DNA of 64,000 bases from assembly GCF_019059575.1 (NCBI RefSeq), contig NW_024881837.1, forward strand, positions 402,501 through 466,500, in the 5' to 3' direction. The stretch is from Amphibalanus amphitrite. Its lineage: Eukaryota; Arthropoda; Thecostraca; Balanomorpha; Balanidae. The position numbers were made by a program, and so were the translations under genes. Below the pieces are notes generated by a model. The model ran no database searches and had not been told where the DNA came from. It saw only the letters and a program-made list of their open reading frames with translations. This document shows positions 2,756 through 38,542 of this stretch, in pieces. The number at the start of each line of letters is the position of its first letter. Positions within the stretch are counted from its first letter, which is position 1.

Positions 2756-3170
2756 ATGTAACGGAAGTTAGCAGGGATTCAGCAGGGGTTCAGCAGGGAT
2801 TCAGCAGGGATCGACGGCCCCTACGATTTCGCTGAATTTTGGTGGAGAGGTGCAGAATGGTGTCCTCTATCGAAAATCCTAGTGCCAAAATGCGGGGAAT
2901 CCATCAGGGGGGCCACAAATCCCAAAAAACAGTATGCCCTCAGGGCACAATCGACGAACTTTGAAAACCCTACTTCTAGCCGTCAAAACAGCTAAAAATG
3001 CACGTCATTCGAAAGAGGACAAAATTTTACATGCAACGGTACCAAATTAAGGGGGCTAGCGCCCCCCTGAACCGAACAAAACAGCTTCAAATATATGGGC
3101 CCGGGAGTATGCCCTCGGCATAAATAAACGTTTTCAACAATTTCAGGCCTATAACATCGACAAAATCCAG
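2756..3170 (+). repeat. Foldback left terminal inverted repeat
   Basis: Unique ~415-bp arm matching the reverse complement of the right arm almost base for base. Near the tip there are four short TTCAGCAGGG direct repeats (2771-2810). Its CCCCTACGATTT segment resembles part of the 278-bp unit, suggesting the satellite arose from terminal-repeat sequence. Confidence 0.85.
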
Positions 3171-5396
3171 CAATATGCACATCATTGGAAAGAGCGTAAT
3201 TTCCCAAACAAAAAACCCAAGTAACATTTTTCGATGGGGCCCACCTGGGGCCCACGGGACCCAATTGAAATTTGGGGCCCAATGGGGCGGCCCCTACGAT
3301 TTTCTTCAAAATTTGCACAGACACTCTCCTGGGCCCCCTCTTCAATCTGGCTGAAGAGACCTACCGGGGAATCCAAAGGAAGGGGCCCAAAGAGGGCCCC
3401 AAAGAGGCCCTTTCTAAGTATTGCCCCTAATTTCGCGACCAACCCCGGCAATATGCACATCATTGGAAAGAGCGTAATTTCCCAAACAAAAAACCCAAGT
3501 AACATTTTTCGATGGGGCCCACCTGGGGCCCACGGGACCCAATTGAAATTTGGGGCCCAATGGGGCGGCCCCTACGATTTTCTTCAAAATTTGCACAGAC
3601 ACTCTCCTGGACCCCCTCTTCAATCTGGCTGAAGAAACCTACCGGGGAATCCAAAGGAAGGGGCCCAAAAAGGGCCCCAAAGAGGCCCTTTCTAAGTATT
3701 GCCCCTAATTTCGCGACCAACCCCGGCAATATGCACATCATTGGAAAGAGCGTAATTTCCCAAACAAAAAACCCAAGTAACATTTTTCGATGGGGCCCAC
3801 CTGGGGCCCACGGGACCCAATTGAAATTTGGGGCCCAATGGGGCGGCCCCTACGATTTTCTTCAAAATTTGCACAGACACTCTCCTGGGCCCCCTCTTCA
3901 ATCTGGCTGAAAAAACCTACCGGGGAATCCAAAGGAAGGGGCCCAAAGAGGGCCCCAAAAAGGCCCTTTCTAAGTATTGCCCCTAACTTTGCGACCAACC
4001 CCGGCAATATGCACATCATTGGAAAGAGCGTAATTTCCCAAACAAAAAACCCAAGTAATATTTTTCGATGGGGCCCACCTGGGGCCCACGGGACCCAATT
4101 GAAATTTGGGGCCCAATGGGGCGGCCCCTACGATTTTCTTCAAAATTTGCACAGACACTCTCCTGGGCCCCCTCTTCAATCTGGCTGAAGAAACCTACCG
4201 GGGAATCCAAAGGAAAGGGCCCAAAGAGGGCCCCAAAGAGGCCCTTTCTAAGTATTGCCCCTAATTTCGCGACCAACCCCGGCAATATGCACATCATTAG
4301 AAAGAGCGTAATTTCCCAAACAAAAAACCCAAGTAACATTTTTCGATGGGGCCCACCTGGGGCCCACGGGACCCAATTGAAATTTGGGGCCCAATGGGGC
4401 GGCCCCTACGATTTTCTTCAAAATTTGCACAGACACTCTCCTGGGCCCCCTCTTCAATCTGGCTGAAGAAACCTACCGGGGAATCCAAAGGAAGGGGCCC
4501 AAAGAGGGCCCCAAAGAGGCCCTTTCTAAGTATTGCCCCTAATTTTGCGACCAACCCCGGCAATATGCACATCATTGGAAAGAGCGTAATTTCCCAAACA
4601 AAAAACCCAAGTAACATTTTTCGATGGGGCCCACCTGGGGCCCACGGGACCCAATTGAAATTTGGGGTCCAATGGGGCGGCCCCTACGATTTTCTTCAAA
4701 ATTTGCACAGACACTCTCCTGGGCCCCTTCTTCAATCTGGCTGAAGAAACCTACCGGGGAATCCAAAGGAAGGGGCCCAAAGAGGGCCCCAAAAAGGCCC
4801 TTTCTAAGTATTGCCCCTAATTTCGCGACCAACCCCGGCAATATGCACATCATTGGAAAGAGCGTAATTTCCCAAACAAAAAACCCAAGTAACATTTTTC
4901 GATGGGGCCCACCTGGGGCCCACGGGACCCAATTGAAATTTGGGGCCCAATGGGGCGGCCCTACGATTTTCTTCAAAATTTGCACAGACACTCTCCTGGG
5001 CCCCCTCTTCAATCTGGCTGAAGAAACCTACCGGGGAATCCAAAGGAAGGGGCCCAAAGAGGGCCCCAAAGAGGCCCTTTCTAAGTATTGCCCCTAATTT
5101 CGCGACCAACCCCGGCAATATGCACATCATTGGAAAGAGCGTAATTTCCCAAACAAAAAACCCAAGTAATATTTTTCGATGGGGCCCACCTGGGGCCCAC
5201 GGGACCCAATTGAAATTTGGGGCCCAATGGGGCGGCCCCTACGATTTTCTTCAAAATTTGCACAGACACTCTCCTGGGCCCCCTCTTCAATCTGGCTGAA
5301 GAAACCTACCGGGGAATCCAAAGGAAGGGGCCCAAAGAGGGCCCCAAAGAGGCCCTTTCTAAGTATTGCCCCTAATTTTGCGACCAACCCCGGCAA
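3171..5396 (+). repeat. 278-bp satellite, left array, about 8 units
   Basis: Near-identical units with a 278-bp period, each rich in the palindrome GGGCCC. The length equals almost exactly eight units. One unit lacks one C of a GGCCCC run near 4963. The period is not a multiple of three, so frames cannot run through the array. Confidence 0.95.
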
Positions 5397-5409
5397 TTTC
5401 AATTTCAAT

Positions 5410-8400
5410 TGAATTGGGTCCCGTGGGCCCCAGGTGGGCCCCATCGAAAAATGTTACTTGGGTTTTTTGTTTGGGAAATTACGCTCTTTCCAATGATGTG
5501 CATATTGCCGGGGTTGGTCGCAAAGTTAGGGGCAATACTTAGAAAGGGCCTCTTTGGGGCCCTCTTTGGGCCCCTTCCTTTGGATTCCCCGGTAGGTTTC
5601 TTCAGCCAGATTGAAGAGGGGGCCCAGGAGAGTGTCTGTGCAAATTTTGAAGAAAATCGTAGGGGCCGCCCCATTGGGCCCCAAATTTCAATTGGGTCCC
5701 GTGGGCCCCAGGTGGGCCCCATCGAAAAATGTTACTTGGGTTTTTTGTTTGGGAAATTACGCTCTTTCCAATGATGTGCATATTGCCGGGGTTGGTCGCG
5801 AAATTAGGGGCAATACTTAGAAAGGGCCTCTTGTGGGCCCTCTTTGGGCCCCTTCCTTTGGATTCCCCGGTAGGTTTCTTCAGCCAGATTGAAGAGGGGG
5901 CCCAGGAGAGTGTCTGTGCAAATTTTGAAGAAAATCGTAGGGGCCGCCCCATTGGGCCCCAAATTTCAATTGGGTCCCGTGGGCCCCAGGTGGGCCCCAT
6001 CGAAAAATGTTACTTGGGTTTTTTGTTTTGGAAATTACGCTCTTTCCAATGATGTGCATATTGCCGGGGTTGGTCGCGAAATTAGGGGCAATACTTAGAA
6101 AGGGCCTCTTTGGGGCCCTCTTTGGGCCCCTTCCTTTGGATTCCCCGGTAGGTTTCTTCAGCCAGATTGAAGAGGGGGCCCAGGAGAGTGTCTGTGCAAA
6201 TTTTGAAGAAAATCGTAGGGGCCGCCCCATTGGGCCCCAAATTTCAATTGGGTCCCGTGGGCCCCAGGTGGGCCCCATCGAAAAATATTACTTGGGTTTT
6301 TTGTTTGGGAAATTACGCTCTTTCCAATGATGTGCATATTGCCGGGGTTGGTCGCAAAGTTAGGGGCAATACTTAGAAAGGGCCTCTTTGGGGCCCTCTT
6401 TGGGCCCCTTCCTTTGGATTCCCCGGTAGGTTTCTTCAGCCAGATTGAAGAGGGGGCCCAGGAGAGTGTCTGTGCAAATTTTGAAGAAAATCGTAGGGGC
6501 CGCCCCATTGGGCCCCAAATTTCAATTTGGTCCCGTGGGCCCCAGGTGGGCCCCATCGAAAAATGTTACTTGGGTTTTTTGTTTGGGAAATTACGCTCTT
6601 TCCAATGATGTGCATATTGCCGGGGTTGGTCGCGAAATTAGGGGCAATACTTAGAAAGGGCCTCTTTGGGGCCCTCTTTGGGCCCCTTCCTTTGGATTCC
6701 CCGGTAGGTTTCTTCCGCCAGATTGAAGAGGGGGCCCAGGAGAGTGTCTGTGCAAATTTTGAAGAAAATCGTAGGGGCCGCCCCATTGGGCCCCAAATTT
6801 CAATTGGGTCCCGTGGGCCCCAGGTGGGCCCCATCGAAAAATGTTAACTGGGTTTTTTGTTTGGGAAATTACGCTTTTTCCAATGATGTGCATATTGCCG
6901 GGGTTGGTCGCGAAATTAGGGGCAATACTTAGAAGGGGCCTCTTTGGGGCCCTCTTTGGGCCCCTTGCTTTGGATTCCCCGGTAGGTTTCTTCAGCCAGA
7001 TTGAAGAGGGGGCCCAGGAGAGTGTCTGTGCAAATTTTGAAGAAAATCGTAGGGGCCGCCCCATTGGGCCCCAAATTTCAATTGGGTCCCGTGGGCCCCA
7101 GGTGGGCCCCATCGAAAAATGTTACTTGGGTTTTTTGTTTGGGAAATTACGCTCTTTCCAATGATGTGCATATTGCCGGGGTTGGTCGCGAAATTAGGGG
7201 CAATATTTAGAAAGGGCCTCTTTGGGGCCCTCTTTGGGCCCCTTCCTTTGGATTCCCCGGTAGGTTTCTTCAGCCAGATTGAAGAGGGGGCCCAGGAGAG
7301 TGTCTGTGCAAATTTTGAAGAAAATCGTAGGGGCCGCCCCATTGGGCCCCAAATTTCAATTGGGTCCCGTGGGCCCCAGGTGGGCCCCATCGAAAAATGT
7401 TACTTGGGTTTTTTGTTTGGGAAATTACGCTCTTTCCAATGATGTGCATATTGCCGGGGTTGGTCGCAAAGTTAGGGGCAATACTTAGAAAGGGCCTCTT
7501 TGGGGCCCTCTTTGGGCCCCTTCCTTTGGATTCCCCGGTAGGTTTCTTCAGCCAGATTGAAGAGGGGGCCCAGGAGAGTGTCTGTGCAAATTTTGAAGAA
7601 AATCGTAGGGGCCGCCCCATTGGGCCCCAAATTTCAATTGGGTCCCGTGGGCCCCAGGTGGGCCCCATCGAAAAATGTTACTTGGGTTTTTTGTTTGGGA
7701 AATTACGCTCTTTCCAATGATGTGCATATTGCCGGGGTTGGTCGCGAAATTAGGGGCAATACTTAGAAAGGGCCTCTTGTGGGCCCTCTTTGGGCCCCTT
7801 CCTTTGGATTCCCCGGTAGGTTTCTTCAGCCAGATTGAAGAGGGGGCCCAGGAGAGTGTCTGTGCAAATTTTGAAGAAAATCGTAGGGGCCGCCCCATTG
7901 GGCCCCAAATTTCAATTGGGTCCCGTGGGCCCCAGGTGGGCCCCATCGAAAAATGTTACTTGGGTTTTTTGTTTGGGAAATTACGCTCTTTCCCATGATG
8001 TGCATATTGCCGGGGTTGGTCGCGAAATTAGGGGCAATACTTAGAAAGGGCCTCTTTGGGGCCCTCTTTGGGCCCCTTCCTTTGGATTCCCCGGTAGGTT
8101 TCTTCAGCCAGATTGAAGAGGGGGCCCAGGAGAGTGTCTGTGCAAATTTTGAAGAAAATCGTAGGGGCCGCCCCATTGGGCCCCAAATTTCAATTGGGTC
8201 CCGTGGGCCCCAGGTGGGCCCCATCGAAAAATATTACTTGGGTTTTTTGTTTGGGAAATTACGCTCTTTCCAATGATGTGCATATTGCCGGGGTTGGTCG
8301 CAAAGTTAGGGGCAATACTTAGAAAGGGCCTCTTTGGGGCCCTCTTTGGGCCCCTTCCTTTGGATTCCCCGGTAGGTTTTTTCAGCCAGATTGAAGAGGG

Positions 8401-8844
8401 GGCCCAGGAGAGTGTCTGTGCAAATTTTGAAGAAAATCGTAGGGGCCGCCCCATTGGGCCCCAAATTTCAATTGGGTCCCGTGGGCCCCAGGTGGGCCCC
8501 ATCGAAAAATGTTACTTGGGTTTTTTGTTTGGGAAATTACGCTCTTTCCAATGATGTGCATATTGCCGGGGTTGGTCGCGAAATTAGGGGCAATACTTAG
8601 AAAGGGCCTCTTTGGGGCCCTTTTTGGGCCCCTTCCTTTGGATTCCCCGGTAGGTTTCTTCAGCCAGATTGAAGAGGGGGCCCAGGAGAGTGTCTGTGCA
8701 AATTTTGAAGAAAATCGTAGGGGCTGCCCCATTGGGCCCCAAATTTCAATTGGGTCCCGTGGGCCCCAGGTGGGCCCCATCGAAAAATGTTACTTGGGTT
8801 TTTTGTTTGGGAAATTACGCTCTTTCCAATGATGTGCATATTGC
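5410..8844 (-). repeat. 278-bp satellite, right array, about 12.4 units, inverted
   Basis: The same unit in the opposite orientation. The array starts mid-unit after a short AT-rich join (about 5397-5409), so the centre is not a perfect palindrome. Variant bases recur at 1946-bp spacing (7 units), for example the CTTGTGGGCCC variant near 5831 and 7777, showing a higher-order duplication. Confidence 0.95.
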
Positions 8845-11189: not shown

Positions 11190-12207
11190 TCAGGGGGGCG
11201 GCGGCGCAGGCAGGTCGAGCGGCGGCTCGGTCCGCCCAACATCCTCGATGAAGGTGACGACCTTCGTCGCCGGGCCGCCGAGGACGTCGACCAGGCGAGG
11301 GTCGACACCCCAGCGGCGGCGGCGGGCCACCTCATAGGCCGGACAATCGGTCAGTAGGTGCGCCGCGCTGTCGGGCTCCCCGCACGCGGGGCATTCGTCG
11401 TCGGCTTCCGGGCCAATCTTGTGGAGCGTGTCACGGGTCAGCGGTGATGTGCCGGTCCTCAGCTGGGACAGCGTCACTGACCCCAGCGCGCCAGGGAGTC
11501 GTGGCCAGGCGTGGGGTCCGGGTGTGGGTGGGCAGCGGTTGCCCTCTGTCGCGACAGCTCCCGGACATGGCGCGTGACGGCGGCCCGCGCACTCGACAGG
11601 TCGATCGGTGCGCTGTCTTGGTCGCCCGCCGTGGCCTCGCCAGCCAGGCGGTCGGCGGTTTCGTTGCCGTCCAGCCCGGCATGGCCTGGCACCCACTGGA
11701 GCACCGTCTCGGTGCCGTTCTCGGCGATGATGCTCAGCACTCAGCAGCCTCCACACCTCGGCAGCCAGGGCCATGGTATGGTTAGCTGGGCCGCGGCCGA
11801 GTAGTTGGAGCCCAGACCTTGAGTCGGTGAGGAGGCGGACCGACTTGGTCGACGCCAACTCCCCGTCCTCCAGGCCGGCCACAGCCGCGAACGCCTCGCG
11901 CATGGCGGTCAGTTCTGCTCTTAGGCTGGAGCAGACCGCCCCTGCAGGAGCGCGCACAGTCTCTTCTCTGTTGAGGTGGTGGAACTGGATCAGAGCCTGC
12001 GCCGCCCTGTTCCGTCCGCCGCGAGCCGAGCCGTCCGACCAGATAGTGACGTCCGGGTGCGGGAGCTCTGCAATGGCTTGCAGGGCAGCTTCCCTGCAGA
12101 CTGCAGGCGGGTCCGACCGGCGGGTGGCCACGGGCAGGTCCACCCTGAAGGTGATGCCGCCGCGGTGGCCCAGCCATGGCGGGTCGCAGCTGTAGAGCGC
12201 CGAAACC
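11190..12207 (-). pseudogene. LINE 3' fragment: RNase H domain and C-terminal zinc knuckle
   Basis: The minus-strand translation shows an RNase H fold: TIWSDGSARGG (first Asp), a SSLRAELTAMREAF block (Glu), LLTDSRSGLQLL (second Asp), then HAGLDGNETADRLAGEA in another frame. A C-terminal CPAC...HLLTDC zinc knuckle follows. Such RNase H domains sit at the 3' end of ORF2 in I-group and related LINEs. The copy is 5'-truncated, with no endonuclease or reverse transcriptase upstream. One frame break coincides with a 7-bp tandem duplication (CTCAGCA twice, 11733-11746); a second break near 11500 returns to the first frame. It is a dead remnant. The exact clade is not determinable from this fragment. 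Confidence 0.8.
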
Positions 12208-12313
12208 TGTAACACAATAAAATTGCAATTGTAACAAAGACCTGCATGGTCAGCACACATCTGCAGTGACTGTCATCCCAAGTTGGTATGAATTGGCACA
12301 AAGTTGGGTCATG

Positions 12314-12474: not shown

Positions 12475-13320
12475 TACCAATACCCAATTTAAATTCCCAA
12501 AATTGATGGCAAACAGGCTTTTTGTATAACAAGTGTGGTTAATTGTTCTAATCCCCGCTGCAATATGAGGGTAACTGCTTTTCTACAATCACAATATTTG
12601 AATTCATATATGTAGGTGTTCACATGTTCAGAAAATGATACAAAATATGACACAATTATAGCTGCAACTGGATAGTGGATACCAACCTCAACTTAAAGTT
12701 TCTGCAGCCTTATAACCTAACAAATGACTAAATTGCCAAAATAAATCCCTCAGTACAATAGCTTGACTCTAAAATAACAGAAATTTTGCATGCAGACCCT
12801 GAAATGGAGGGTTTATGAAAAGTAACAAAAATAAACATTCACTAATATCAATATGTTGTTATAAATTTCATATGTAGCATAAGCGCCAATACTGCCTTCA
12901 TTTACAATGTTGCTACTGTTTTCCACTCACAAACGCTGCCCTCCGTGGACAGCAGCAGCAGCAGTGAAACGTCACCCGTGGTGTGACATCATCACCCATG
13001 ACGTAATGGAAATCCAGTTGTTACCAAGGCCCGTGAATCTGCACAGCACAAGAGTAAATTCACACTGCAAACATCAATGGAGAGCCCAGCTATGAGCCAA
13101 CACATCAGTCAAGTAATCTCACCTGAACAATTTTCATCTGCGACCTGCCATAGGTCGCAGATGAACGCAGATGAATATAGTACGAACACGGTGGTAAGTG
13201 GTGGCACGCTCCTGTCCTGATACCATCCTTTATTCAACAATACTGACAGTAATACCTGTAAACGCAATTTTCTGAGTCAATTATCGCATAAACCACGATC
13301 TAAACCTACTTTGCTTAGAA
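12475..13320. other. Non-coding; possible 5' UTR of the downstream LINE
   Basis: No gene is seen. A perfect 12-bp-stem hairpin (13135-13163, CATCTGCGACCT and its complement around GCCAT) lies 158 bp before the ORF1 start. How far the LINE 5' UTR reaches is not visible; no target duplication was recognised. Confidence 0.4.
13135..13163. repeat. Perfect hairpin upstream of LINE ORF1
   Basis: The stem is CATCTGCGACCT, the loop GCCAT, and the other arm AGGTCGCAGATG. Its role is unknown; it may lie in the LINE 5' UTR. Confidence 0.6.
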
Positions 13321-16300
13321 ATGGCTGGTGTGAAAGCCCCGAGCAAAGCAACAAGAGGTAAGAAGACGAAAGTGGCGCATGTGAAAACGTCGAGAGAAGC
13401 GAGGTCAGGGGAAAATGATGATGTGAGGACTGTTAATGAAGCTGAAAATAGCTACATTTGTCCTAAATGTGGGAAGGAGGCTGAGATGGATGTTATAGAA
13501 TGTGAAACATGTCATGAATGGTTTCACTTTGCATGTGCTGGGGTCACAGAGCAGCTTCAGGATTTGAGTGATATTGAATGGATTTGTTGCATGTGCATGT
13601 CGCAGAGCGCAACTAACTTCGCAAATGGGTGTGGCAGGCATGATACTGCTGACAGTGCACTGAGGGGGATGATCTCAGAAACAGGGGGCGATTCCGCAAT
13701 TAAATTTGGCATGATTGAAACTGGCCATGCAAACGGGAAGCATGAGACGGATTCAACAATGGTGCTCCGCAAAGACCATGCAATGGGGGATGGCTATATG
13801 TGTGAGGGCGAAGAAGGTGGTTGCATGAGAAGCACTGCAAATGAACTCGCACCATGTGTAAATGATGAGACGCATCTGCATGGGCATGATGATATGCATG
13901 ACACTGAAACTTTGACTGGGAGTCAAAAGGAGTGTGATAGCTTGCGGAGTGCTGTAATTATGCCAAGGGATACTGTTGAATCCTTCATACAAGCGGCCAA
14001 AGCTAACTCGGAAAAGAAGATAGAGACATTAGGGTTTCTGGCAGGTACAAAAGATGATGGAAGAGTGCGCGTCACATCAATAATAATACCTGAACAGATA
14101 GGAACAACATCAACATGTGAATGTAGACAGGAGGAACAAGTGGTAGAATGCATTCGAAAAGACGATCTCATTCTGGTGGGGTGGATACATACTCACCCCA
14201 TTTATGATACATTTATGAGCTCAATTGATGTACATACACAGTACACCATACAGAGAGATGTTAGTGAGGCATATGCCATAGTATGTGCAACTGAGAAAGG
14301 CAAAACTGGGTACTTCCATCTCACAGTGCAGGGCATGAGAAATGTTTCAGGATGCCAAACAGGAGGCTTTCACGAAGGTTGTGGTGAGGACACAAACTGG
14401 GAAGCAATTGAGCAACCCGAGTGGTGTAGCACACAGATAGAGGTCACTGATCTACGAAGCAGAATGAACAAAAAAGTTCAAGTCGATGCACAGGAGGGAC
14501 CCCAGCAGAATGAAGATGCTGGTCTGGAGGCAGGAAGAGCCTGCAGCAAGAACAACTCAAAGAAAAGGAGACCTGAAGAAAATGTGAACAAGGATAGCAT
14601 GCGTGAAGTGGGAAAGCATACAGAGGAGAACAGGAGGCAACAGGCAGCATTAAGCAATGCAATGCAGCAAAGTGAAGACAAGAGGGAGAAAGGAGAAGGA
14701 GGCAACACAGAGAAACTGAGACCAAGCACGTCGCAGGGCTGTGAAAGAAGCCAAGGAGTACAAAACTTGGTGATTGATGAAGAGCTGCAGGAAGAAGGTC
14801 GAAGCCAAGAACAAATATCGGTTGGAAGAAAACATGAAGGTAGGGTTGAAGAGATGGCCCAGCAGCACGGGGGACGGGAGCAAGAGGGGGATGAGGCAGA
14901 AAAAAGAAGCGAGGCATGCCAACAGGAAACAGTCAGATATACCAATTTAGTACAGGATGAAGGAACGCTCTGTCAAGAAAGTGAAAAGCATGAGGGAGAA
15001 ACTAGCAACAGAGAGGAAAATAGCAGAAATGAGAGAGAAAATGTTAATGTGACTGTACCAGGAAAAGGTGGACAGAAAGACCCTACAGGTAAACCGAAAG
15101 GCCTGAGAAAGGCTAGGCTAACTAACGGCGTACTAAAAAGTCCCAGAATTGGGTTAGCAGCACAAATACAGCAGCTCAAAGCGGAAAATCAAAAACTGAG
15201 AGTACAGCTGCATCAACTGGAACAGGGAAAAGAAGTGCAAAAGAATGTTGACCAAGTGGATGGTGGAAAAGTTCTAGGTGAAGGATTATGTGGAGCGTGT
15301 GCAGCATACCTGCTATGGCTACATAGACAAGAAGAAGAAAAGTGTGGAACTCTGCAAAACCAAAGCATGGATGCGGCAAATCAGCTGAGAAATGTGAGTA
15401 AACAAGGGAAGGAAAACAGCACACCAACGGCAAATCAACACTACAGGCAGGGACAAGAACAAGGCATGTTGGGAAACACATACCAACAAGAAGAAACAGA
15501 GAATGAAATTGTTGTGGTAAGCAGTGATAATGAAGACACACAGAAAGTGCGGGAATCAAGTAACTCCAAAAGAAACCAGGAGTTGACAAAGGACAAAACT
15601 GTACAATGCGACCTGAACTCACAGAGCACAGGAAAGTCGAGATCGAAAGTGGGAAATGAGAATGAAGGATGGGGAGAGAGAGAACAGCAAAGAAAGGAAA
15701 TGAACTGCCGCAAAGGTGGCATAGAGAAAAGAGGAGAGGACAACAAACAGGAAAACCATGAGGATAACACGATACATGGAAGAAATCCTCTGATGAGCAA
15801 CAACGTAGAGCAAGGAAGAAACAATGGTGCTACAGGGCATGAAAGAGGACAAGGTGGAAGACACCCACGATACTATAGAACTAGAGTGTTCGTCAATCAG
15901 CGGTATAGAAATAGGGACGAATACAGGGAGTACGAAGAAAGGGAATGGGAGCCTGTGCATCACTTTACAGGAGAAGACAACATGCGCAGGTTGAATGGAA
16001 ATAGTAGAAAAAACTACTACAGGACAGACAGGTACAGGGAAGGAGTGTATAAACAAGAACAACGCGAAGAAGGTAAGGGAGCCAGAGCGTTTGGAAAGCA
16101 GGACCTTAATGCAGACGGACATGACAAAAGAAACGGAAACCGCGTCCAAGTAGAACCACCCTATTACGGTAGGCGCTTCGATGGACACCCAGGTCAGAGA
16201 AAGTGGGGCAGACATGAGCATCATGAACCCCAAGACTGGCAGCTGAGAGGACAAAGACAGATGAACTGGAATGGCAACAAGGGGTGCAATCAATCACATG

Positions 16301-16617
16301 AGCGAGGGACTGGGAATGAAAACCAAGAATGTTCCAGGGACTATATGGAAGACGAACGTAACTATGGGACCACTGAGGAATGGAATGAAGAGGGTGGTGC
16401 ATCCGGAAATCAGCAGCAGAGGAGGCAGTACCAACAAGAAAAGTGGTACAGTCGAGAAGAGCAGAGCTGGAACTATCCGGAAAGTCGACGGGTCCGGAGA
16501 GAGCATGGGAATTTTCACCGGCAAGGGGCGAGTGGAAACCCAGATCAGTGCCCAGGTTGGAGAGGGAAAAGCTATGCCGAAGCCCTGCTGGAAGAGCGCA
16601 GGGTCTTATGGTACTAA
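13321..16617 (+). CDS. LINE ORF1 protein: PHD finger + AMSH-like JAMM metalloprotease
   Basis: An uninterrupted 1098-aa frame. Residues 47-92 form a C4HC3 PHD finger (C47, C50, C61, C64, H69, C72, C89, C92), a fold that commonly binds histone tails. Residues about 214-355 match the JAMM/MPN+ metalloprotease of the AMSH family: E235 in ETLGFLAG, H290-x-H292, then S300 and D303 in the exact HxHx7SxxD spacing. The second AMSH zinc site is largely kept (H305, C345, H351); the fourth ligand position is Gly353, with Cys354 next to it. AMSH enzymes cleave Lys63-linked ubiquitin chains. A leucine-rich coiled coil lies at about 612-640. The last 250 residues are rich in Arg, Tyr, Gly and Asn, suiting RNA binding. 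The long Glu/Gln/Lys-rich middle looks disordered. Deubiquitinase activity is inferred, not shown. Confidence 0.88.
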   Translation: MAGVKAPSKATRGKKTKVAHVKTSREARSGENDDVRTVNEAENSYICPKCGKEAEMDVIECETCHEWFHFACAGVTEQLQDLSDIEWICCMCMSQSATNFANGCGRHDTADSALRGMISETGGDSAIKFGMIETGHANGKHETDSTMVLRKDHAMGDGYMCEGEEGGCMRSTANELAPCVNDETHLHGHDDMHDTETLTGSQKECDSLRSAVIMPRDTVESFIQAAKANSEKKIETLGFLAGTKDDGRVRVTSIIIPEQIGTTSTCECRQEEQVVECIRKDDLILVGWIHTHPIYDTFMSSIDVHTQYTIQRDVSEAYAIVCATEKGKTGYFHLTVQGMRNVSGCQTGGFHEGCGEDTNWEAIEQPEWCSTQIEVTDLRSRMNKKVQVDAQEGPQQNEDAGLEAGRACSKNNSKKRRPEENVNKDSMREVGKHTEENRRQQAALSNAMQQSEDKREKGEGGNTEKLRPSTSQGCERSQGVQNLVIDEELQEEGRSQEQISVGRKHEGRVEEMAQQHGGREQEGDEAEKRSEACQQETVRYTNLVQDEGTLCQESEKHEGETSNREENSRNERENVNVTVPGKGGQKDPTGKPKGLRKARLTNGVLKSPRIGLAAQIQQLKAENQKLRVQLHQLEQGKEVQKNVDQVDGGKVLGEGLCGACAAYLLWLHRQEEEKCGTLQNQSMDAANQLRNVSKQGKENSTPTANQHYRQGQEQGMLGNTYQQEETENEIVVVSSDNEDTQKVRESSNSKRNQELTKDKTVQCDLNSQSTGKSRSKVGNENEGWGEREQQRKEMNCRKGGIEKRGEDNKQENHEDNTIHGRNPLMSNNVEQGRNNGATGHERGQGGRHPRYYRTRVFVNQRYRNRDEYREYEEREWEPVHHFTGEDNMRRLNGNSRKNYYRTDRYREGVYKQEQREEGKGARAFGKQDLNADGHDKRNGNRVQVEPPYYGRRFDGHPGQRKWGRHEHHEPQDWQLRGQRQMNWNGNKGCNQSHERGTGNENQECSRDYMEDERNYGTTEEWNEEGGASGNQQQRRQYQQEKWYSREEQSWNYPESRRVRREHGNFHRQGASGNPDQCPGWRGKSYAEALLEERRVLWY

Positions 16618-19600
16618 CAAGAGAAGGAGACACTGGGAGAAATTAAAACTCGTTCAGTATAACTGTAGAGGATACCAGAAGAGTGAGTTTATGCAAAGCA
16701 TATTAGATGAAGCAGATATTCTGTTGCTCAATGAAACATGGACTTCAAAGGCAAATCAAAGTCAAACCCTACTGACCGAAACACATGATGTGATTGCAGT
16801 AAGCTATGATGAATATATAGACTATGCCGTCTTACAGAACAAAAGTGGTCGTGGGCACGGGGGTGTAGCGATTATGACGAGAAAGGAGCTAGGCATGATT
16901 GAAGTGGACCACCGTGGCAGCACTAGGATTCAGGCGGCAATTGTAAAGGGCATGGAGATTGACATCCTAGTCATTGCTGTATATTTGCCGACTGGCACAC
17001 TTCAGAAGACAACCATTGAGTTTCAAGAGACAATAGATAAGGTGACAGGCATAATTGAGGAGTATGGTGAAGAGAAGATGATCATTGTTGGAGGTGATCT
17101 CAATGTGGACCTGACTAAAAACGTGCATCCAAACAAGAAGTATGTCGAAGCGATGCTAGCTGACTATGGATTAATGATTCCCTGCAACAACATAGAGGGC
17201 CATAACACATTTTACAAGAATGAAGTTGAAGCAACATCACTGCTAGACTATTTTATGGTTGACAGAGGTCACTCAATGTATGTAACAGAGTATAAGATTC
17301 CAGAAAGAAGCGCTCTCAACACGTCAGACCATGAGCCGATATGTGTCTGTGTTGAAATGAAAAGGAGATGTAAACAGCAAAAAACAGAGGAGCAAAAAAT
17401 TGACTGGGAGAAGGCACGAAGGAATGGCAGCATTGAAGCCTATCGGCGTTACCTATGGAAACATAGACAGACGCGAGTGGACATAGACAGTATCAACAAG
17501 ACCATTATAGAAGCAGCGAGAATGCTTCCAAAGAAGGGAAGAAGGAACAAGGCAAGTAAGTGGTGGAACAGCGCTCTCACGGAAATGAGACGAGAATGCT
17601 TAGCAGCTAAAGACAAATGGAAAGAATGTCCGGCGGAAGAAAAAGATATTGCGAAAGCGACATACAGAAGTAAAAAGCGGCAGTATATCAATGCGCAAAG
17701 AATGTATAGGCTACGTGCCCGAAAGGAAGATGATGCTAAAAAAGAGATAGAATGCCAAAAACTATCAAACAAGTACTATCAAAGAATACAAAAATGCGTA
17801 CGAAGAAGCAAAGTACAACGACTGAAAATTGAAGGAAAAGAAATCTACCAGCCCCTGGAGATTGCTGAGGCGTTCCTCCACCATTTTGTTAGAACAGCCA
17901 TGCCAATAGAAGACCCGTGTTTCGACAGGAAATGGAAGGAACATGTCACGGCAGTGGTCAACTTAACATGTAACAAATACCAGGAAAAAGGACGAGACTT
18001 AGAAGACTGTAAGCCAATAACAGAAGCAGAAATATCCAACATTATTCGAAGACTGAAGAGAAGGAAAGCACCAGGAACAGATAATATTATGGCCGAGCAT
18101 CTCATAGAGGCAGGAGACGCTCTTATTCAAGATATAGGAACCTGTCTCCAGGATATAATGAAAACAACAGAGATTCCAGAGAACTTCAAATGTGGACTAG
18201 TCACTCCAATCTACAAAGGACACGGAGGTAACACTGAGCAAACAGACAGCTACAGGGATATATCTGTCCTGACTACTGCCTGCAAAATATTCGAAAAGGC
18301 TATAATTCACAGACTAGGTGAGGAGCTCAAAGAAGCCGGAATACCGTCTGATTTACAATTCGCGTACCAAAGTGACAGGAGTACTTTGCAGGCAAACTTC
18401 ATCCTTAGAGAAGTAATATCTGCAAATAGAGATATAGGCAAGACAGTATATGTCGCCTACTTGGATGTGCGGAAATGTTTCAATTCGATTTGGCACGATG
18501 GTCTCATCTATAAGCTAATCACCAGCAATGTTCACCCAAGACTGGTATTGATACTCTACAATCTTTACAAAGAGTTCAGAGTCAGAGTGAAGGTTGCAAA
18601 TGAAAAGTCTGGGATGGGAAACATGCAACAAGGACTAAAGCAGGGTGGAGTGTTGTCCACTAGCCTGCTCTGTCTCTACATGCACGATAAGATACAAACT
18701 CTGCAGCAAGCACGTGTTGGAGCAAGAGTTGGAGATATACAAGTACCTATCATTGCATATGCAGATGATGAAGTTCTCATTAGTACAGATCCGACAGAGA
18801 TGCAGTTAATGCTCGATGTTGCATACAGTCATAGCACGAAATGGAGATATCAGTACAATGCAAGTAAGAGCAAAATCATGGTATATGGGAAATGCTGAGA
18901 TGGCAGAAGATGGTTACTAGGAAAAGAGCACATTGAAGTAACCACAGAATATACCCATCTGGGCGTCCATATGACCAACAAGGCTGAAGGAAGAAAGAGA
19001 ATCGAAGAGGGTATGAAAAGGGCGAGAAGAGCGATGTTTGCAAGGTGCCCAGAAGGCCTTAACGTTGCCCGTACAAGCCCACTGTCTCTTTACACCACAT
19101 GGAAAATATATGCTGAACCGATACTCCTGTACTCCATGCCAGTGACGATTTTCACAAATCAAGAAATTAACTACCTGGAGGTGATGGTGGTAAGACTTCT
19201 GAGGGCTATGCAAGGATTACCCAGAAGAACCCAGAACTTAGCTGTGTACATGATGCTTGGAGCGTTACCCCCTAAGGTGATGATAATGAAAGCAGCTATG
19301 CAATTCATTCAGTTTCTCGCTAAAGCAGCGCGGGAGCATGCACTGACGGAATACATGATACTGCACGGTGCTCTCAACAAGGACAGGAGCTCGAGCATAC
19401 TAAGGCAATGGGAACATTACTTTACCGCATTGAAGCTACCAGGCATAATACAAATGATGACAACAAATGGAGTACAGGGTAAGAGCTGGTATAAAGTTTG
19501 CAAACAAGCCATCAACGCGTATACTAAAGCAATGATTATAGAAGAAGCTAGCAAGAGACAAACTATACAGTGGATCGCCGATATTGCACAAAATATGGAA

Positions 19601-20119
19601 GAATACGAGCCAGCGAATCAATTCTGGCCGAAAAACAGACTAAGTGTTATTGGCAGACAAGCGACAGGCACGAGGATACGACTTCTAACGGAGCAGTCGC
19701 TTCTTGCCACAGGAGTCTTAAGAAGGCACGCTGAGCGAAATGAGATCTGTCCATTATGCATGAAAGCAACAGAAACTCTTGAACACTTTCTTTATGAGTG
19801 TGTGGAACTGCGGCAAGAACGTGAGGAAGGACAGAGGAGGTGGAATGCGAGGTTAAATAGGACTCTACCTGCGAAGCTGACTGTCCGCAATGCTGACTCA
19901 GAAGAGGCCTTGTTGATCAATTACCTATACAAGACAAGGATACAAAAGGAACTGCAGTCTGCATGTCGACAGCAGTTGAAACGAGCAGGACAAGAAAAGA
20001 ATCCTGTCCTCATCCTCCCAGTCTCTCCTTGCCCGGTGCCACCACTAGCGTCTTGCACAGTACCTAACGTAAAGGCTGAGATAAGGGACAGCAGAGGGTC
20101 ATCAGGGAGGACAACCTGA
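16574..20119 (+). pseudogene. LINE ORF2: endonuclease, reverse transcriptase, zinc finger; one in-frame TGA
   Basis: The likely start is the ATG at 16574, overlapping the ORF1 end by 44 bp in the +1 frame; the frame is open further upstream to 16271 without conserved content. Residues about 27-260 hold an APE-type endonuclease (VQYNCRG, LLNETW, VGGDLNVDL, NTSDHEP). The reverse transcriptase spans about 490-770, with KAPGTDN, a palm YLDVRKCF motif and catalytic AYADD near residue 728. A C-terminal CPLC...HFLYEC zinc finger lies near 1058. A TGA at 18896-18898 interrupts the frame just after the polymerase core, and the same frame then continues to 20119. All catalytic motifs before the stop are intact. 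I read this as a single nonsense mutation; the copy would make a protein lacking thumb/C-terminal regions. Confidence 0.85.
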
Positions 20120-20168
20120 TGGTGCACCCGATGGGTGGAACCGACGACTGAGAAGAAGAAGAAGAAGC

Positions 20169-24650: not shown

Positions 24651-27600
24651 TCAGCCCCGAAGCTGGATGTTCACGAAGAACTCATTCGGCTGCCGAACGG
24701 CAGCGACACGGCTCTCCAGACTCAGGGTCTGTCCGGGAGCTGCCGAGAACCGGAACCGCTGCAGCAGACAGGTGAACAGCACGAACATCTCCATGCGCGC
24801 CAGCGACTCGCCGAGACAGAACCTCCTGCCGATGCCGAACGGGATGACGTGCTCGTCGCGCCGGAACGTGCCGTCGGCGTTGATGAAGCGCTCCGGTCGG
24901 AAGGTGTCCGGATCTCCCCAGTAGGCGGGGTCCATGTGGACGACGTCCAGGTGCATCAGAACCAGAGAGCCTTTGGCCACGGTGTAGCCGCCGAGCGGGG
25001 CGTCCTGCAGCGCCGAGTGGCCGACGGCGCGCGGCACCACGGTGGCGCGTCGCGACACCTCCTGCAGGGTGGCCTCTGTGTACGGCATGTTGGCGCGGTC
25101 GGTGTAGGAGGGCAGACGGCGATCGGCGCCCACACCCAGCACGGCGTCAATCTCCTGCTGCACGCGCGTCTGCACGTCCGGGTGCATCACCATCAGCAGC
25201 AGCGCCCAGGTCAGAGACGTGGAGGTGGTCTCCATGCCCGCCAGAAACAGGTCCATGCAGACGATAGAGAGGTTCTCGTCGGTGAAGCTGCGTGCCGCCG
25301 CGTCCGGTGACTCCATCTCGATGAGGAAGCGGTCAATGAAGTCACGAGGCGCGGCGCGGTCCAGCGTCTGGCGGTGCTCCTTCATCAGCTCTTGAAACAT
25401 AGCTAGTGAGTTGTCCCTGTTGTTTTTCAGCTCCTTCAAGCCAAACGAGTTTGGGCTGATGAAGCGCAGAAACGGGAACATGCTTAATGGATTACTAGGA
25501 CCGGTTATGGTCACGAAATCATTCACTTCTTTGACCCTCTGTTTAGCTTCAGGTTCGCTGCGATCCAGGCGTTTGCTAGCAACCAGTCTCCAGAGCACGT
25601 TCAGTACCGTCAAGTTAAACCTTTGATTTACCTTCATTGGGGAGTGCATGTCTTGCTCCATTTCTTTGGCCAGATGCTCAAACTCCTCCAGAATAATCGT
25701 CTCCATGGAGTTAGTTCCGAAACCCAAATCACGCAAGTGCCGCAGGGTAAAGCGTCGATGCTCCTGCCAGGCAGGACCGTCATTGAGGATCACTCCTAGC
25801 TTCTTCTGGAAGCTTCGGTAAAGAACTATGAAGTTGCTAGGCCTTCCACTGAACTCCTGTCTGGCACACGATTCCTTGATCAAGTCGTAATTTAGCAGAT
25901 GAACAATCTTGAAGTTTCCTGGCATAATGTAGGCCATAATGTCTCCATATTTTTTGCGATGTTCTTTGACCATTACTTCGAAGTCTCCTTTGAGAGATCT
26001 GAACGTTTCGAACAGGTTGCCAAAGATCAGGAACATCGGTGGCCCTGGAAAAAATGCAATGTTAAAGTCGCTTCTTACTGCCATTATATATGCCATTATA
26101 TGAATGCATTACACATGCATTCATGATGTGTAATGGGCAATGTTAAATGTAGTATTTGTGTTTACAAATCCGTACATGCGCGGTCTGAAAAGCCATCACA
26201 TGGAGACCGTACGCAAATAAATACAAAAATACAAAATTATGGGATAACATTGACGGGAGCACATCAAAGCGATATGTTCAAGGAAACATATCACTTTTAA
26301 TGGGGCTTTGAACTGGAACAGCGGCTTTGTAGCTTGAGCTGAGAAACGTACAATTCTGAAGCTTGTATGCCCCAACAATCACCCTAGCCAAAGATATGAC
26401 GATTTTAGTTCCGAAATTAGCCCTTATGGAGGAAAGCGATGCCTTACGGAAGAATGCATAGAATGCAGCTACATACTTCCGGCAGAGGCCAATCGTCAGC
26501 CAATCAGCATGCAGTTGGTTTTGAACTACGCAATATGATTGGTCAACGAATAATCAGCTTCCGCCATGCAAGCACTATACCTATTTAGCTTCTACCAAAG
26601 TTGGAAAAAAGGTATTCCTATTTCTAAATATTTTAACACTATAATTGTAGATATCAATTATTTCCTTTTCTGATCATTTAAAACATTAAACATAATAAAA
26701 CTTTAACTGTAGCAAAAACTCATTTGAGGAAAGTGGTATCTTCCTTTAAACGCATTAATTACATGTTGTGAAGAAACGGGATCAAAGCTGGTGTAGAGGT
26801 TCACCAAACACAATCAACATTAGTTGCACATATTTTCTAAGACAGCGCATATTGCATCAATACATCAGACAAAACAGTAATCACAGAGGCACGGGGCCGG
26901 GGGGCCTCAGATTTGGAGGCCTCTTAAATCAACCAGCCGACATCGAGTTCCGATATTGGCGCAAAGCCTTGTCGCCCATTGCTTATTGGGAACATCATGA
27001 TACTACTGGTCCACACCGGGTTCATGGCCTCCGAAGTGCTTTTGACCCTTCGGCCGACAGAGGGTGCCGGCACAACCCGCACTGCTAGTTCGCACAGCAG
27101 GTGTTCCCATGGAATTAAAAGCAAAATTTATTGCAGCAAAGAGCTTCGTTATGCTGTTAATAAGTGAATTGATAAGTTGTTACGCCTGGTATAACGGATC
27201 TCGCTGCTTATTTTAAGTTTCGCACCTGCCAAATTTACCAAAACAATGTTTAAGTTTAAAGGGAATAGTTCACCTTCCTGAAATTAGTTTTTTTGCAATG
27301 GATTTATGATTTTTGTGTGCTAGAAATTATTAGAAAATAACATAAATCCTTTTTTTATAAAAAGGATTATGTATTTTCTTTATTTTAATCCGCGCCCCGT
27401 AGCGGAGGGGGCGAAACGCCCCTCCCCCTGTCCTTTGCCGTCGATATCTCCTAAACGGCTGCAGATATCGCCACCAAACTTTCAGCACACCTCCGGGCAT
27501 CAATTTTACACATTGTGACTAAAAAATTGTCCAGCAGCTAAGATAGGTTGGCCACAAGTGACGTCAGAATGACGTCATGTTCTGTTATTTTCGACCGAAA

Positions 27601-33988: not shown

Positions 33989-34868
33989 TTAAGACCTAAA
34001 AAGGTGTCTATCGGATGCAGCTTTTCAAGGCAAATCGATTAATGCTATTTTTGTTCCGCACAAGTTCTAGAGCTAAAAAAATCGTTTTTTATGTGTGCCG
34101 TGACGTCATTTTTTTAACAGCTTCTTCATTTGTAACCGATTCTTCTAAAAATCAGAATACATGTGCACTGAGACTAGCTGTCTAACATATCTTCCGATCT
34201 TCCGTTATTTTTATAAACTCAAAATGTTGGATTTTTAATGCCTTTCCCCAAAATCAGTTTAATATGGACTAAAATCCAAGAATTTTAAAAAAATCGAAAC
34301 AGCCATTTGAAAGACAAAGTAGAATTACGACAAGCTTTTTGTTGCGTCTTGACTCCTTAAAAATGAAGATGTTAGAGGCGTTTAAATTTTTGCAGTTCTC
34401 GAAGCAAAAATGGCGTGACATGACGTCACTAAAACGTCAATTTATCAAACATTTCCGACCAATTTCGCTCACATTTTTTGAGAACATGTCAAATTAATGT
34501 AAAATAAGATATATGAGAGAGTTTGACGTCGCTGGCTTAACGCTTTTAGAAGTTATTGGCGAAAAACGGGATGGGACAGATTCTGCCCCCCCCCCTCCCC
34601 TGCAGCGTGGCGCGGGTTAAAGGGACCCTCCCACCTTAACATTAGATTTGAGTTGAGATAGCCAAAATGGGGTCCCTGGCTCACAATTACCGGTTTCGGC
34701 ACTCACAACATCGAGAAATGCCTTAAATCGGAAATATTGAATTTCAAAATTGCAGCATTTTGATTCAGAGGGGCTAATGCATAGGAATACCCCTCTGAAT
34801 GTGTGACGTCAGCGCAAATATCTAACGATTTTTAAATGTTTGACTAAAACGTTTTGTAGCACGCGGTG

Positions 34869-35094: not shown

Positions 35095-38000
35095 ATGGAG
35101 GGAATTCGTCCGCCCGCGGCATTCTTACCTCTTCCAGGCCCGCCGGTGGTGCCGTGGAATAACTGGTTTCCGGACTTCGAAGTTTATGCCATGGCCATAG
35201 GTTGGTCAGCATGGAGTCAGGAGAGGCAGCAGGCCTTGCTCCTGCACTGCCTTGGGCAGGAAGGGCGGAGACTGTTTAGGGCTGAGTGCCCAGGAGGTAT
35301 TGTGAAAACAGAGCCCTCTGACACCACTTTGGTTGAGGATACAGTAGCTGTCTTATGTCGTCTGTTTGTCAGTAAGACTGATATCATCTCAGAGAGGATA
35401 AAATTCAGGAAGTGCAGACAGCAGGCTTCTTCTGTTCGTACCTACCTAGCCAATCTGAGGGAAGGTAGTCAGAAGTGTGCATTTGGTAACTTAGAAGATG
35501 AAATGATAAGAGATCAGTTTTTGGAAGGATGTTCCTCTCAAAGGCTTAAGGAAAGACTGTGTCAGGAAGAAAACCTAACCCTGCAGCGTCTTGAAGTCAT
35601 CGCTCTCACTGCTGATCAGGCTGCTGACCGTCAACAAACTCTAGCTGGCAGGTCTCCGGAGCTGGGGGCAGAGGTCCTCAAGGAAGTGGCAGCGACTGAG
35701 AGGAGAGGCGGCTTCTCCACCCGGCGAGACTCAGAAGGCAAGAAACGACAGCAAGGTGAGATGACCTGTTTTGCATGTGGCCGTAAAGGACATAAAGCCA
35801 AGAGTAAGGAGTGTCCAGCCAGGGTCAGGAAGTGTAACAAGTGTCATGAGAAAGGGCATTATGCAGTCATGTGCAAGCGTCAGGAGTCTTCGCATGCCTG
35901 TGTGGTAGAAGTGTCGACTGTGCACCATGTGCCCTCTCAAGTGCCTCGTCCCATGATGTCTGTTGGCATTGATGGAATTCAGGTCCAGATGTTGTTGGAT
36001 ACAGGATCGGGAGTGAGTCTGATACCCAGCAGCTTGTATCAGGAGCAGTTTGCGCACGTCCCTCTACAGATGTCTTCCATCAGGCTTCAGGGATATGGAG
36101 GACACCTTCTGCCTGTTCGTGGTATGATGACGGCCACAGTGTCCTCTGACAGGGGATGTTCGACTGAGGGTACCTTGTTCGTGGTGGAGTCCCACAGTGT
36201 ACCCCTGCTTGGCCGTGACCTACAGCAGCTGCTTAGTGTTACAGTCAAAGATGGCAATGTCGTCTGTGCGGTAGAGGGGGAGGATGCAGAGGTTCTGCCC
36301 GCCATACACGGCTTTGTCCACAGAGTCAAGGTGAAGGAGGGGGCCACTCCGGTCCGTCAGAAGCTGCGACCCCTGCCGCTGTCGGTCAGGGGTGAAGTGA
36401 AGGAGCACCTGGAGAAGCTGGAGAAGCAGGACGTCATAGAGAGGGTGGACTCCTCTCCATGGGTGTCACCTGTGGTGGTCACCCGGCGACGGACTGGTGG
36501 TATCCGTCTCTGCTTGGACTTGAAGGAGGTGAACAAGAGCATCATCTCGAGTAAGCACCCCTTGCCTGACATGCAAGAGATGTTAGATAAGCTCAGAGGA
36601 GCCAGAGTATTTTCTTCACTAGACATGAAGTCAGCATTCAATCAGTTGATGCTTCACAAAGAGTCCCGTGACTTGACCGCTTTCATGACGCACGAGGGTC
36701 TGTGGCGCTACAAACGGTGCTGTTTTGGACTGTCGTCCATTCCAGCGGCATTCCAGAAGGTCATGGAAGCCGTCCTGACGGGTCTGCCAGGGGTGATGGT
36801 GTACATGGATGACATCATTGTGTTTGGCAGGGATGCACCAGAGCATGATGTCCGGCTGCAGCAGGTCCTCGCGCGACTGAACGCTCATCGTATCACCCTG
36901 AACGAGAAGAAGTGCTTGTTTGGTGTCCCCACACTTGACTTCCTCGGGTTGACAGTGAGCGCAGCTGGCATCTCGGTCAGTGTTGAGAGGACGAGAGGGA
37001 TGACGGAGTTGACGTCACCGCGGACCAAGGCTGACCTCCAGTCAGCTCTGGGCCTTTTTGGCTTCTATGCCAGGTTCGTGCAGGGCTACTCGTCGCTGGT
37101 GGAGCCTCTGCGCGCGGAACTTCGTTCGAGTGCAAGTCACGAGTTCGAGTGGTCTGAGGAACTGGAGCTGGTCTTCAGGAGGGTGATCGCTCTGATCACG
37201 TCCAGTTCTGCGCTTGCCATGTTTGACCCCACCTTACCGACAGTAGTGACCACGGACGCGTCTGATGTTGGTCTCGGTGGGGTGCTGAGCCAGATCCACC
37301 CGGAAGGAGAGCGGGTCGTGGCGTTCGCATCCGCTACCCTCTCCTCAGCACAGCGGAAGTATTGTGCGACTGAGAAGGAGGCACTGGCTGCTCTATGGGC
37401 TATTGAACACTGGCATCGGTACCTGTTTGGCATTCACTTTACCCTCAGGACGGACCATCAGGCGCTGCTGCGACTTCTCACGTCCAGAGGAGTCGGACGG
37501 GCAGGAATGAGGATCAGTCGCTGGGCCAGTCGCCTCCTCGTCTACGACTTCGAGATCCGTCACGTGCCAGGCAAGTGTAACGTGGCTGACGGTCTCTCGC
37601 GTCTGCCGGCAGTGGGCGCGGAAGCGGCTCCAGACGACGAGGAGCAGCTGGTGGCGGAGATAGCTGAACGGGTGGAGCGTCTCTCGGCAGTGAGCAGAGG
37701 CGAGCTCCGCGAGTCAGTTCAGACCGATCCTGTTCTCAGGAAGCTGAAGAGTCAGCTGGACGAAGGGTGGCCGGCAAGGATTGCCAGCTGTCCTGACGAC
37801 CTGAGACCGTTCTTCCGCTGCAGGCTGGAGCTGTCAACGGCTGACGGTCTCATCTTCAAGGGCGACCGGATCGTGGTTCCGGAGGAGCTGAGAAGGCGTC
37901 TTCTGGATCTTGCTCATGAGGGGCATCAAGGCACGGTAAGAACTAAGCAGCGCTTGAGGGAGCTGTTTTGGTGGCCCGGGATGGACGCCAACGTTGAGTG

Positions 38001-38288: not shown

Positions 38289-38542
38289 GAAGACGACACT
38301 ACACGGTGGTATATGCTATTTGCGCGCAACATCTGCCGCAAACGCCGCACTTCTAAAATCAAGTCGCTAGAAACAGCGGAGATCCCAAAAAAGTAAACAA
38401 AAGTAAAAGTCTAATATCTTGAAAACCGGTGAATATTTTTCGGTGAAATTTGGTAGATATTCGTTTTCGCTCTTTCTGAACCGAGCGACATCACTTTCAT
38501 GCCAATTCATAAACTTTTTTGAAGGTGGGAGGGTCCCTTTAA

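Follow-up and report, generated by a model that had tools for sequence, protein, structure and literature searches.

An AMSH-type JAMM domain in LINE ORF1 proteins and in Penelope-like elements of Amphibalanus amphitrite

A 64,000-nucleotide stretch of the Amphibalanus amphitrite genome (contig NW_024881837.1, positions 402,501 to 466,500, forward strand; hereafter the window) contains a long interspersed nuclear element (LINE) whose first open reading frame (ORF1) carries a JAMM metalloprotease domain of the type found in the deubiquitinase AMSH. Why should a retrotransposon carry such a domain, where did it come from, and is it still in use? The same AMSH domain is also carried by a second, unrelated kind of reverse transcriptase (RT)-bearing element in this genome, and it is held more tightly than the rest of ORF1 in the LINEs and than the middle part of the protein in the Penelope-like elements. 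On balance, we read it as a particle-borne and probably active deubiquitinase that would act on ubiquitin at the element's own ribonucleoprotein particle (RNP).

ORF1 of the window LINE carries a PHD finger and an AMSH-type JAMM domain

ORF1 (13321..16617, +) is one uninterrupted frame of 1098 codons (1098 amino acids, aa). The initial annotation, made from the letters of the window, had placed in it a PHD finger at residues 47–92 (13459..13596, +) and a complete AMSH-type JAMM domain, and both assignments hold. Pfam recognizes the PHD finger (PF00628, residues 47–92, 30.8 bits with a cut-off of 24, E=3e-7) and the JAB family (PF01398, residues 211–313, 53.1 bits with a cut-off of 22.5, E=3.3e-14), and the catalytic domain as a whole occupies residues 208–379 (13942..14457, +). 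Its best solved relatives in a sequence search of the PDB are AMSH-LP (2znr, E=3.9e-29, residues 208–356), STAMBP and sst2, with E-values from 3.9e-29 to 9.9e-22. The next JAMM family, the Rpn11-type, follows at E=9.4e-7, about 15 or more orders of magnitude weaker than the AMSH group, and a profile search of the domain gave 9.3e-62 against 5.7e-16 for the same comparison. The window JAMM is closer to AMSH than to the other families, and it extends to D-L-R, the same end as in the AMSH-LP and STAMBP chains. The N-terminal MIT/USP8-dimer part of AMSH was not found in ORF1 (no PF08969 at E<=1). For the PHD finger, the nearest solved relative by sequence is TAF3.

The E-xn-HxH-x7-S-x2-D motif is complete (E235, H290, H292, S300 and D303) and the zinc residues H305, C345 and H351 are present, each exactly at the residue named in the initial annotation. 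When the JAMM domains of the retroelements in this genome were aligned, all eight catalytic and zinc columns were invariant in 11 of 11 rows. Of the 159 gap-free columns 35 are invariant, and all eight would be so by chance with a probability of ∼3e-6 if the ligands were ordinary columns. A chance match for the PHD or JAMM domain was ruled out by the E-values together with the invariant ligands.

The element as a whole spans 13182..20167 (+), as given by alignment breakpoints against the copies on contigs C1027, C15, C233 and C423 (the window contig is C340 in these labels). Its 5' end lies at ∼13182–13196, varying with the copy compared, and its 3' end at ∼20167 inside an (AAG)n run. An inverted repeat was seen by eye in the target DNA directly before the 5' end (∼13120–13170). 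ORF2 starts at 16271 in another frame and overlaps ORF1, as the initial annotation had noted. Its first part (16271..18898, +; 875 aa) contains an exonuclease-endonuclease-phosphatase (APE-type) endonuclease domain (EN; 16655..17332, +; PF03372, E=1.6e-8, 35 bits with a cut-off of 24.5) and an RT domain (18242..18880, +; PF00078, E=9.5e-28), both over the Pfam cut-off, as is typical of an APE-type LINE. The same frame continues after an in-frame stop (18896–18898) into a second part (18899..20119, +; 406 aa) with a zf-RVT-like Cys motif (PF13966, sub-threshold, E=2.2e-4), the matching part of relatives being 43–48% identical. The stop is not found in C1027, C15 and C423, the three copies readable there, whose ORF2 frames at the RT are 1284 aa long without stops.

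Copies were sought in the window's own genome (807.6 Mb, 2644 contigs), the only eukaryote collection covered. ORF1 is full-length, uninterrupted and given as 100% identical in the window, C1027 and C15 (98–100% in single domains), with differing flanks. The five copies (window, C1027, C15, C233 and C423) have common 5' and 3' ends, differing flanks and AAG-type 3' runs, as expected for dispersed LINE insertions; candidate target-site duplications were seen by eye in three of the five (C1027, C15 and C233), with a weak one at C423 and none clear for the window copy. Since the copies are near-identical and the ORF2 stop of the window is not shared, the family is young and copies with both frames open exist. 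The LINE has been recently active, and the window copy is a recent insertion.

JAMM-bearing LINE families and Penelope-like elements

A search of the genome with the window RT gave at least 126 scored matches from at least 7197 first-look candidates, among which 29 rows (28 loci) lay at 56–100% identity before a drop to 33%. LINE-type JAMM domains were found at 10 loci, so that the search for further copies proposed in the initial annotation added two LINE families to the window family (C340, C1027, C15, C233 and C423). One is represented by C166, which has a 1431-aa ORF1 frame with both PHD and JAMM, and the other by C1476, C360, C1133 and C59, with 511–694-aa frames whose JAMM is 46–47% identical to that of the window. 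The PHD finger is present in two of the three families; neither the genome search nor Pfam found it in the third (C1476) family. A coiled-coil-like stretch with a Cys/Leu motif (window ORF1 residues 607–702; 15139..15426, +) is common to the window and third families, and a leucine-zipper model matches it below threshold (E=0.024). Homologous EN and RT adjoin the JAMM ORF1s of C166 and the C1476 group, with the exception of C1133, where the stretch examined shows only EN pieces and a related RT is 12 kb off.

Of the 28 related-RT loci, 10 are on contigs with a LINE-type JAMM, two of them broken inside it. Four of the 18 loci without JAMM were examined: the front part of ORF1 is missing at C1643 and C699, only the JAMM tail is left at C483 (448890), and at C1443 the ORF1 match starts at residue 912. 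Family copies without the PHD-JAMM region would have spoken against the initial annotation, and no complete ORF1 without JAMM was seen among the 14 of 28 RT loci examined (the 10 with JAMM and these four).

Most of the other long-frame JAMM matches belong to different elements (C210, C55, C279, C108, C225, C1311, C1971, C796 and more), a second retroelement class that the initial annotation had missed. Their frames, of up to 1250 aa, have the JAMM at or near the N-terminus, followed by a middle part, an RT, a Cys-rich stretch and a GIY-YIG-like C-terminus (motifs by eye), and the RT has Penelope-like motifs, likewise read by eye (LLFCMDV.KLYPSVP, GTAIGS.LG and LYLRYIDDIF). At least part of the JAMM is present at all 15 loci, L014–L028. 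JAMM, middle part, RT and EN are joined in one frame at L017, L020, L024 and L025. At L014, L015, L016, L018, L021, L022, L027 and L028 the four parts keep their order but are interrupted by breaks or gaps or truncated at an end; in the stretch examined, the set is incomplete or rearranged at L019, L023 and L026. Partial copies resembling the pseudo-long terminal repeats (pLTRs) of Penelope-like elements were found as direct copies at L015, L016, L020 and L022 and as inverted pieces at L024, L025 and L045.

Pfam and profile comparisons speak against this assignment. GIY-YIG was matched below the cut-off on C-terminal pieces of two of three ORFs tried (E=0.0024 and 0.0045; none on the third), RVT_1 had no match in the Penelope-like ORFs, a profile comparison of their RT with the LINE RT was not significant (E=0.28), and when the RT/EN part was compared with the PDB, its single match was at chance level. 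We therefore base the name Penelope-like on the motifs, the order of the domains and the way the copies are arranged. Pfam detected no PHD in the five ORFs of this class submitted to it. A relative of the Penelope-like RT (28% identical in the RT) lies at L080 (C1643:63700–68200), beside a third-family LINE that lacks the front of ORF1, and no JAMM was detected on C1643, where the stretch read ends inside the L080 frame; to judge from this locus, JAMM-free Penelope-like members likely exist.

Selection on the JAMM domain and its origin

Nonsynonymous (dN) and synonymous (dS) divergence was estimated by the Nei-Gojobori method. Between the window and C166 the JAMM is 62% identical over the 175 residues compared (dN 0.28, dS 2.3) and the RT 59% (dN 0.34, dS saturated), which means that the JAMM is about as tightly held as the RT. 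The EN (52%, dN 0.41), the PHD finger (39%, dN 0.64) and the rest of ORF1 (25%, dN 0.90) are less so. Towards the third family, the rest of ORF1 again falls far behind JAMM and RT (dN 0.85–1.04). Near-identical third-family copies differ by few changes; their JAMM has a dN of 0.005–0.007 against a dS of 0.009–0.035, and five of the six pairs have a higher dN than dS in the remainder of ORF1. The Penelope-like proteins show a similar pattern (L017-L020), with dN values of 0.40 for JAMM, 0.38 for RT and 0.80 for the middle part. The JAMM is under purifying selection, with stronger constraint than the rest of ORF1; had such selection been lacking, it would have told against the initial annotation.

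These numbers also bear on the PHD finger. The initial annotation had suggested that it guides the enzyme to histone marks, and one may accordingly picture a chromatin role in which the PHD binds such a mark and the JAMM strips ubiquitin from histones at the insertion site. The PHD is a genuine Pfam match whose closest PHD relative in sequence is that of TAF3, a protein that binds H3K4me3. PHD fingers are moreover common in the ORF1s of CR1/L2 elements, where a targeting role is suggested in the passages on these domains (PMC4120745). However, the JAMM is kept in the third LINE family and in five Penelope-like ORFs where no PHD was found, and the PHD diverges faster than the JAMM in the comparison with C166. 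Guidance of the enzyme to histones by the PHD is not supported as its main role, and we regard a chromatin role as unlikely.

The host AMSH gene was located through its USP8-dimer exon on C491, with the JAMM pieces a few kb away, and also on C1333, which perhaps holds an allele of the C491 gene. The JAMM on C491 is split into six exon-like pieces. Four of these stand out clearly in a tblastn search with human AMSH-LP, the best with 76% identity over 38 residues; the first is only 10 residues long (E=1.2), and the last, with the D-L-R end, was read by eye. The third piece occurs more than once in a row (L077 and L079), as if the gene were partly repeated. The JAMM domains of the retroelements have no such breaks, and they are 38–42% (LINE) or 43–52% (Penelope-like) identical to human AMSH-LP.

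A host AMSH gene with introns does exist in this genome, a circumstance that the initial annotation had flagged as a possible sign of a chance chimera. A chimera with it was ruled out, as the C491 gene is distinct and has its JAMM split over exons. An artefact in the wider sense, that is, an assembly chimera or a host AMSH retrocopy inserted by chance beside a LINE, is extremely improbable. Nothing was found in its favour; against it stand the 10 loci, from three families that differ in sequence, at which the JAMM lies within a LINE-type ORF1, the shared element ends of the window family, the single ORF1 frame across the domains, and a clearly different host gene. The natural reading, already proposed in the initial annotation, is capture of a cellular AMSH domain by a retrotransposon. 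The domain would have been taken without introns from a cellular AMSH gene, probably before the split of the three LINE families of this genome, and would have been kept since then by purifying selection.

With the JAMM alone as query, the genome contig collection gave no matches. The JAMM alignment as query found 31 prokaryote loci, the best four of which came from archaeal bins, two titled Heimdallarchaeota; these four (L046, L047, L048 and L049), which we label Asgard, served as tree outgroup. They have a GWIHTHP motif like AMSH. No JAMM matches were found in the viral contigs scanned. A second tree left out the archaeal rows and the partial Penelope-like row L045. The LINE rows form one group in both trees (support 99/99 with archaeal rows, 100/99 without), as do the cellular rows (88/91 and 87/86), and the Penelope-like rows form a third group whose support depends on the outgroup (44/61 with archaeal rows, 97/92 without). 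The phylogeny that the initial annotation called for thus sets the LINE group apart from host AMSH. It does not order the LINE, Penelope-like and cellular groups, since the split is three-way and unrooted and any two of the three could be sisters. The trees are accordingly compatible with one capture that may have been passed between the classes and with two separate captures.

The window holds several other repeats and frames. A 278-bp satellite at 3170–8844 forms two arrays (8.0 and 12.3 copies, 98% matches) of seemingly opposite orientations, which meet at ∼5400. Another LINE fragment is probably represented at 11190–12260 (−) by a frame that, read by eye, combines an RNase H-like stretch with a zinc finger at its end, and a second, different LINE ORF2-like frame of 839 aa has RT motifs by eye (46428–48947, −). 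At 35095–38370 there is a 1091-aa gag-pol-like frame, of Ty3/gypsy type by eye; the flank of the C1027 LINE copy matches window positions 34616–34868 and 38301–38542. By eye only, an uninterrupted frame at 24651–26096 (−) resembles a cytochrome P450 and one at 40147–41394 an arthropod chemoreceptor.

Possible roles of the domain and relation to known systems

What might the captured enzyme do? AMSH and AMSH-LP cleave Lys63 (K63)-linked ubiquitin chains without partners, according to the passages on these enzymes in PMC9313428, so a transplanted domain could be active alone. The setting common to both retroelement classes is the element's own protein, which favours a particle-borne enzyme: the JAMM would ride on the RNP, in the LINEs as part of the ORF1 protein, in the Penelope-like elements through its fusion to the RT-endonuclease protein. 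Working as a zinc metalloprotease that needs no partner, it would strip the particle, or host factors in contact with it, of ubiquitin chains, K63-linked ones most likely. The particle may thereby avoid clearance that depends on ubiquitin, whether by selective autophagy, the lysosome or the proteasome, and/or adjust its use of the endosomal sorting complexes required for transport (ESCRT). The PHD finger may help in targeting, though elements in which no PHD was found keep the JAMM as well. The enzymatic activity, the type of chain, the association with the particle and the benefit to the element are inferred here, as are the time and source of the capture. Counter-defence by viral deubiquitinases is known. 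The JAMM complex BRISC is described as rescuing HIV Tat from K63-ubiquitin-directed autophagy (PMC9313428), and PMC5478143 reports that autophagy restrains L1 and that robust LINE retrotransposition, in a yeast model as well as for human L1, depends on ESCRT. One may go further and regard the deubiquitinase as equipment that retroelements have in common: an AMSH domain, either acquired once and later handed on between LINE and Penelope-like elements or acquired twice, that counters ubiquitin-based host control of particles. We put this broader proposal forward tentatively, as possible rather than probable.

Several observations weigh against a particle-borne, active deubiquitinase. In AMSH-LP, H362, C402, H408 and H410 form the second zinc site, and T353, F355 and F407 are among the ubiquitin-contact residues. 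The equivalent of H410 is gone in three of three LINE rows (G in the window copy and C166, T in the third family; it is kept in six of eight Penelope-like rows). V328 and F332, which in AMSH-LP touch Ile44 of ubiquitin as described in PMC7863924, read E/V in each of the three LINE rows, and in the seven of seven Penelope-like rows covered they read D/A or D/D. F332 is kept in three of three cellular rows, and an E in place of V328 is also seen in the rows of host AMSH and human STAMBP. T351-Q352-T353 is nearly kept in the Penelope-like rows and reads I/L/M-Y-D in the LINE rows. The three LINE rows have thus kept F355 and F407 and changed V328, F332 and T353, and as the contact positions are not all kept, the chain type, and even ubiquitin as the substrate, is not secured; the preference of the enzyme may have shifted. 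In the comparison of the window with the third family the JAMM (46–47%, dN 0.54–0.55) is less conserved than the RT (60–61%, dN 0.36). Because nearly all deep pairs have saturated silent sites and the near-identical pairs differ by few changes, the case for selection depends mostly on contrasts in dN and on a single usable dS. In two copies, those on C233 and C423 (98%), the JAMM itself is broken. The STAM-binding motif was not found in the seven ORFs scanned, including the LINE ORF1s of the window, C166, C1476 and C360; these four ORF1s have neither PTAP/PSAP nor YPxnL; and a single PPxY (residue 946; 0.01 expected by shuffling) occurs in the window ORF1 and not in the other two LINE families.

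Two other readings draw on the same observations. The changed ubiquitin-contact positions and the lost H410 equivalent would suit a JAMM fold kept as an inactive scaffold or binding module, like the MPN-minus proteins. Such a role is quite improbable in view of the eight core ligand and catalytic columns, the Glu base included, which are invariant in 11 of 11 rows, and of the motif itself, which PMC9313428, where it treats the family, gives as characteristic of the active MPN-plus proteins. The other is an ESCRT-centred role, in which the domain would act as cellular AMSH does at membrane ESCRT sites and recycle ubiquitin on the sorting adaptors used for particle trafficking. AMSH is introduced in PMC9313428 as an ESCRT-linked enzyme, ESCRT is required as described above and is reported to bind the L1 ORF1 protein via a late domain (PMC5478143), and the PPxY of the window ORF1 would fit. 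Yet the STAM-binding motif of AMSH and PTAP/PSAP were not found in the ORFs scanned, the PPxY is restricted to one family, and YPxnL was seen only in Penelope-like ORFs, near chance level. We consider a role of this kind rather doubtful, and continue to favour an enzyme carried on the particle.

It is an open question how retrotransposon particles evade ubiquitin-dependent clearance, and another why LINEs require ESCRT. An element with its own AMSH-type enzyme makes both testable by single-residue changes. That one domain occurs in two unrelated retroelement classes of a single genome suggests either a strong or recurrent benefit or movement of the module between classes, and the known ORF1 architectures are extended by a JAMM type.

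Compared with AMSH, AMSH-LP and sst2, the window JAMM has the whole catalytic domain to the terminal D-L-R, the E-HxH-x7-S-x2-D core and the second-zinc H, C and H. It differs in being ∼39% identical to human AMSH-LP, in lacking the AMSH N-terminal domain by Pfam, in the loss of the H410 equivalent, in the changed F332 and T351-Q352-T353, and in its fusion to a PHD finger and a retroelement ORF1. LINEs with cysteine proteases of the OTU/Ulp1 type exist, although none turned up in our literature search; they likewise carry a ubiquitin-type protease, but not a JAMM metalloprotease. The search, which did not cover subscription journals and Repbase notes, found no report of a JAMM, AMSH or deubiquitinase domain in LINE or Penelope-like elements. 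In PMC3482391 the JAB passages concern toxins, and the mention of Penelope concerns the endonuclease fold.

Among LINEs, the PHD-type (Type III) ORF1s of CR1/L2 elements are the closest in layout, with a PHD in ORF1 beside an APE-RT ORF2, as outlined in PMC4120745; the window ORF1 has no RRM by Pfam and has the JAMM added. The classification passages of Metcalfe and Casane (PMC4120745) give five ORF1 types, PHD and esterase included and JAMM not among them, and a term search of that text gave no 'protease', 'ubiquit' or 'peptidase'. The esterase (Type IV) ORF1s of CR1/L2 elements likewise have a captured enzyme, a different one, thought in the passages concerned to act at membranes (PMC4120745, PMC5478143). 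A captured enzyme in ORF1 is thus of a known kind, and what is new here is the enzyme, a JAMM, and its unexpected spread over two classes. The sharing of captured ORFs between retroelement classes also has a precedent in bdelloid rotifers, where, as PMC5408684 describes for the Athena elements, LTR (long terminal repeat) and Penelope-like elements of one genome have the same enzyme modules. In the rotifers these are a GDSL esterase and a DEDDy exonuclease, whereas here it is a deubiquitinase domain that is found both in a LINE ORF1 and at the front of a Penelope-like RT protein.

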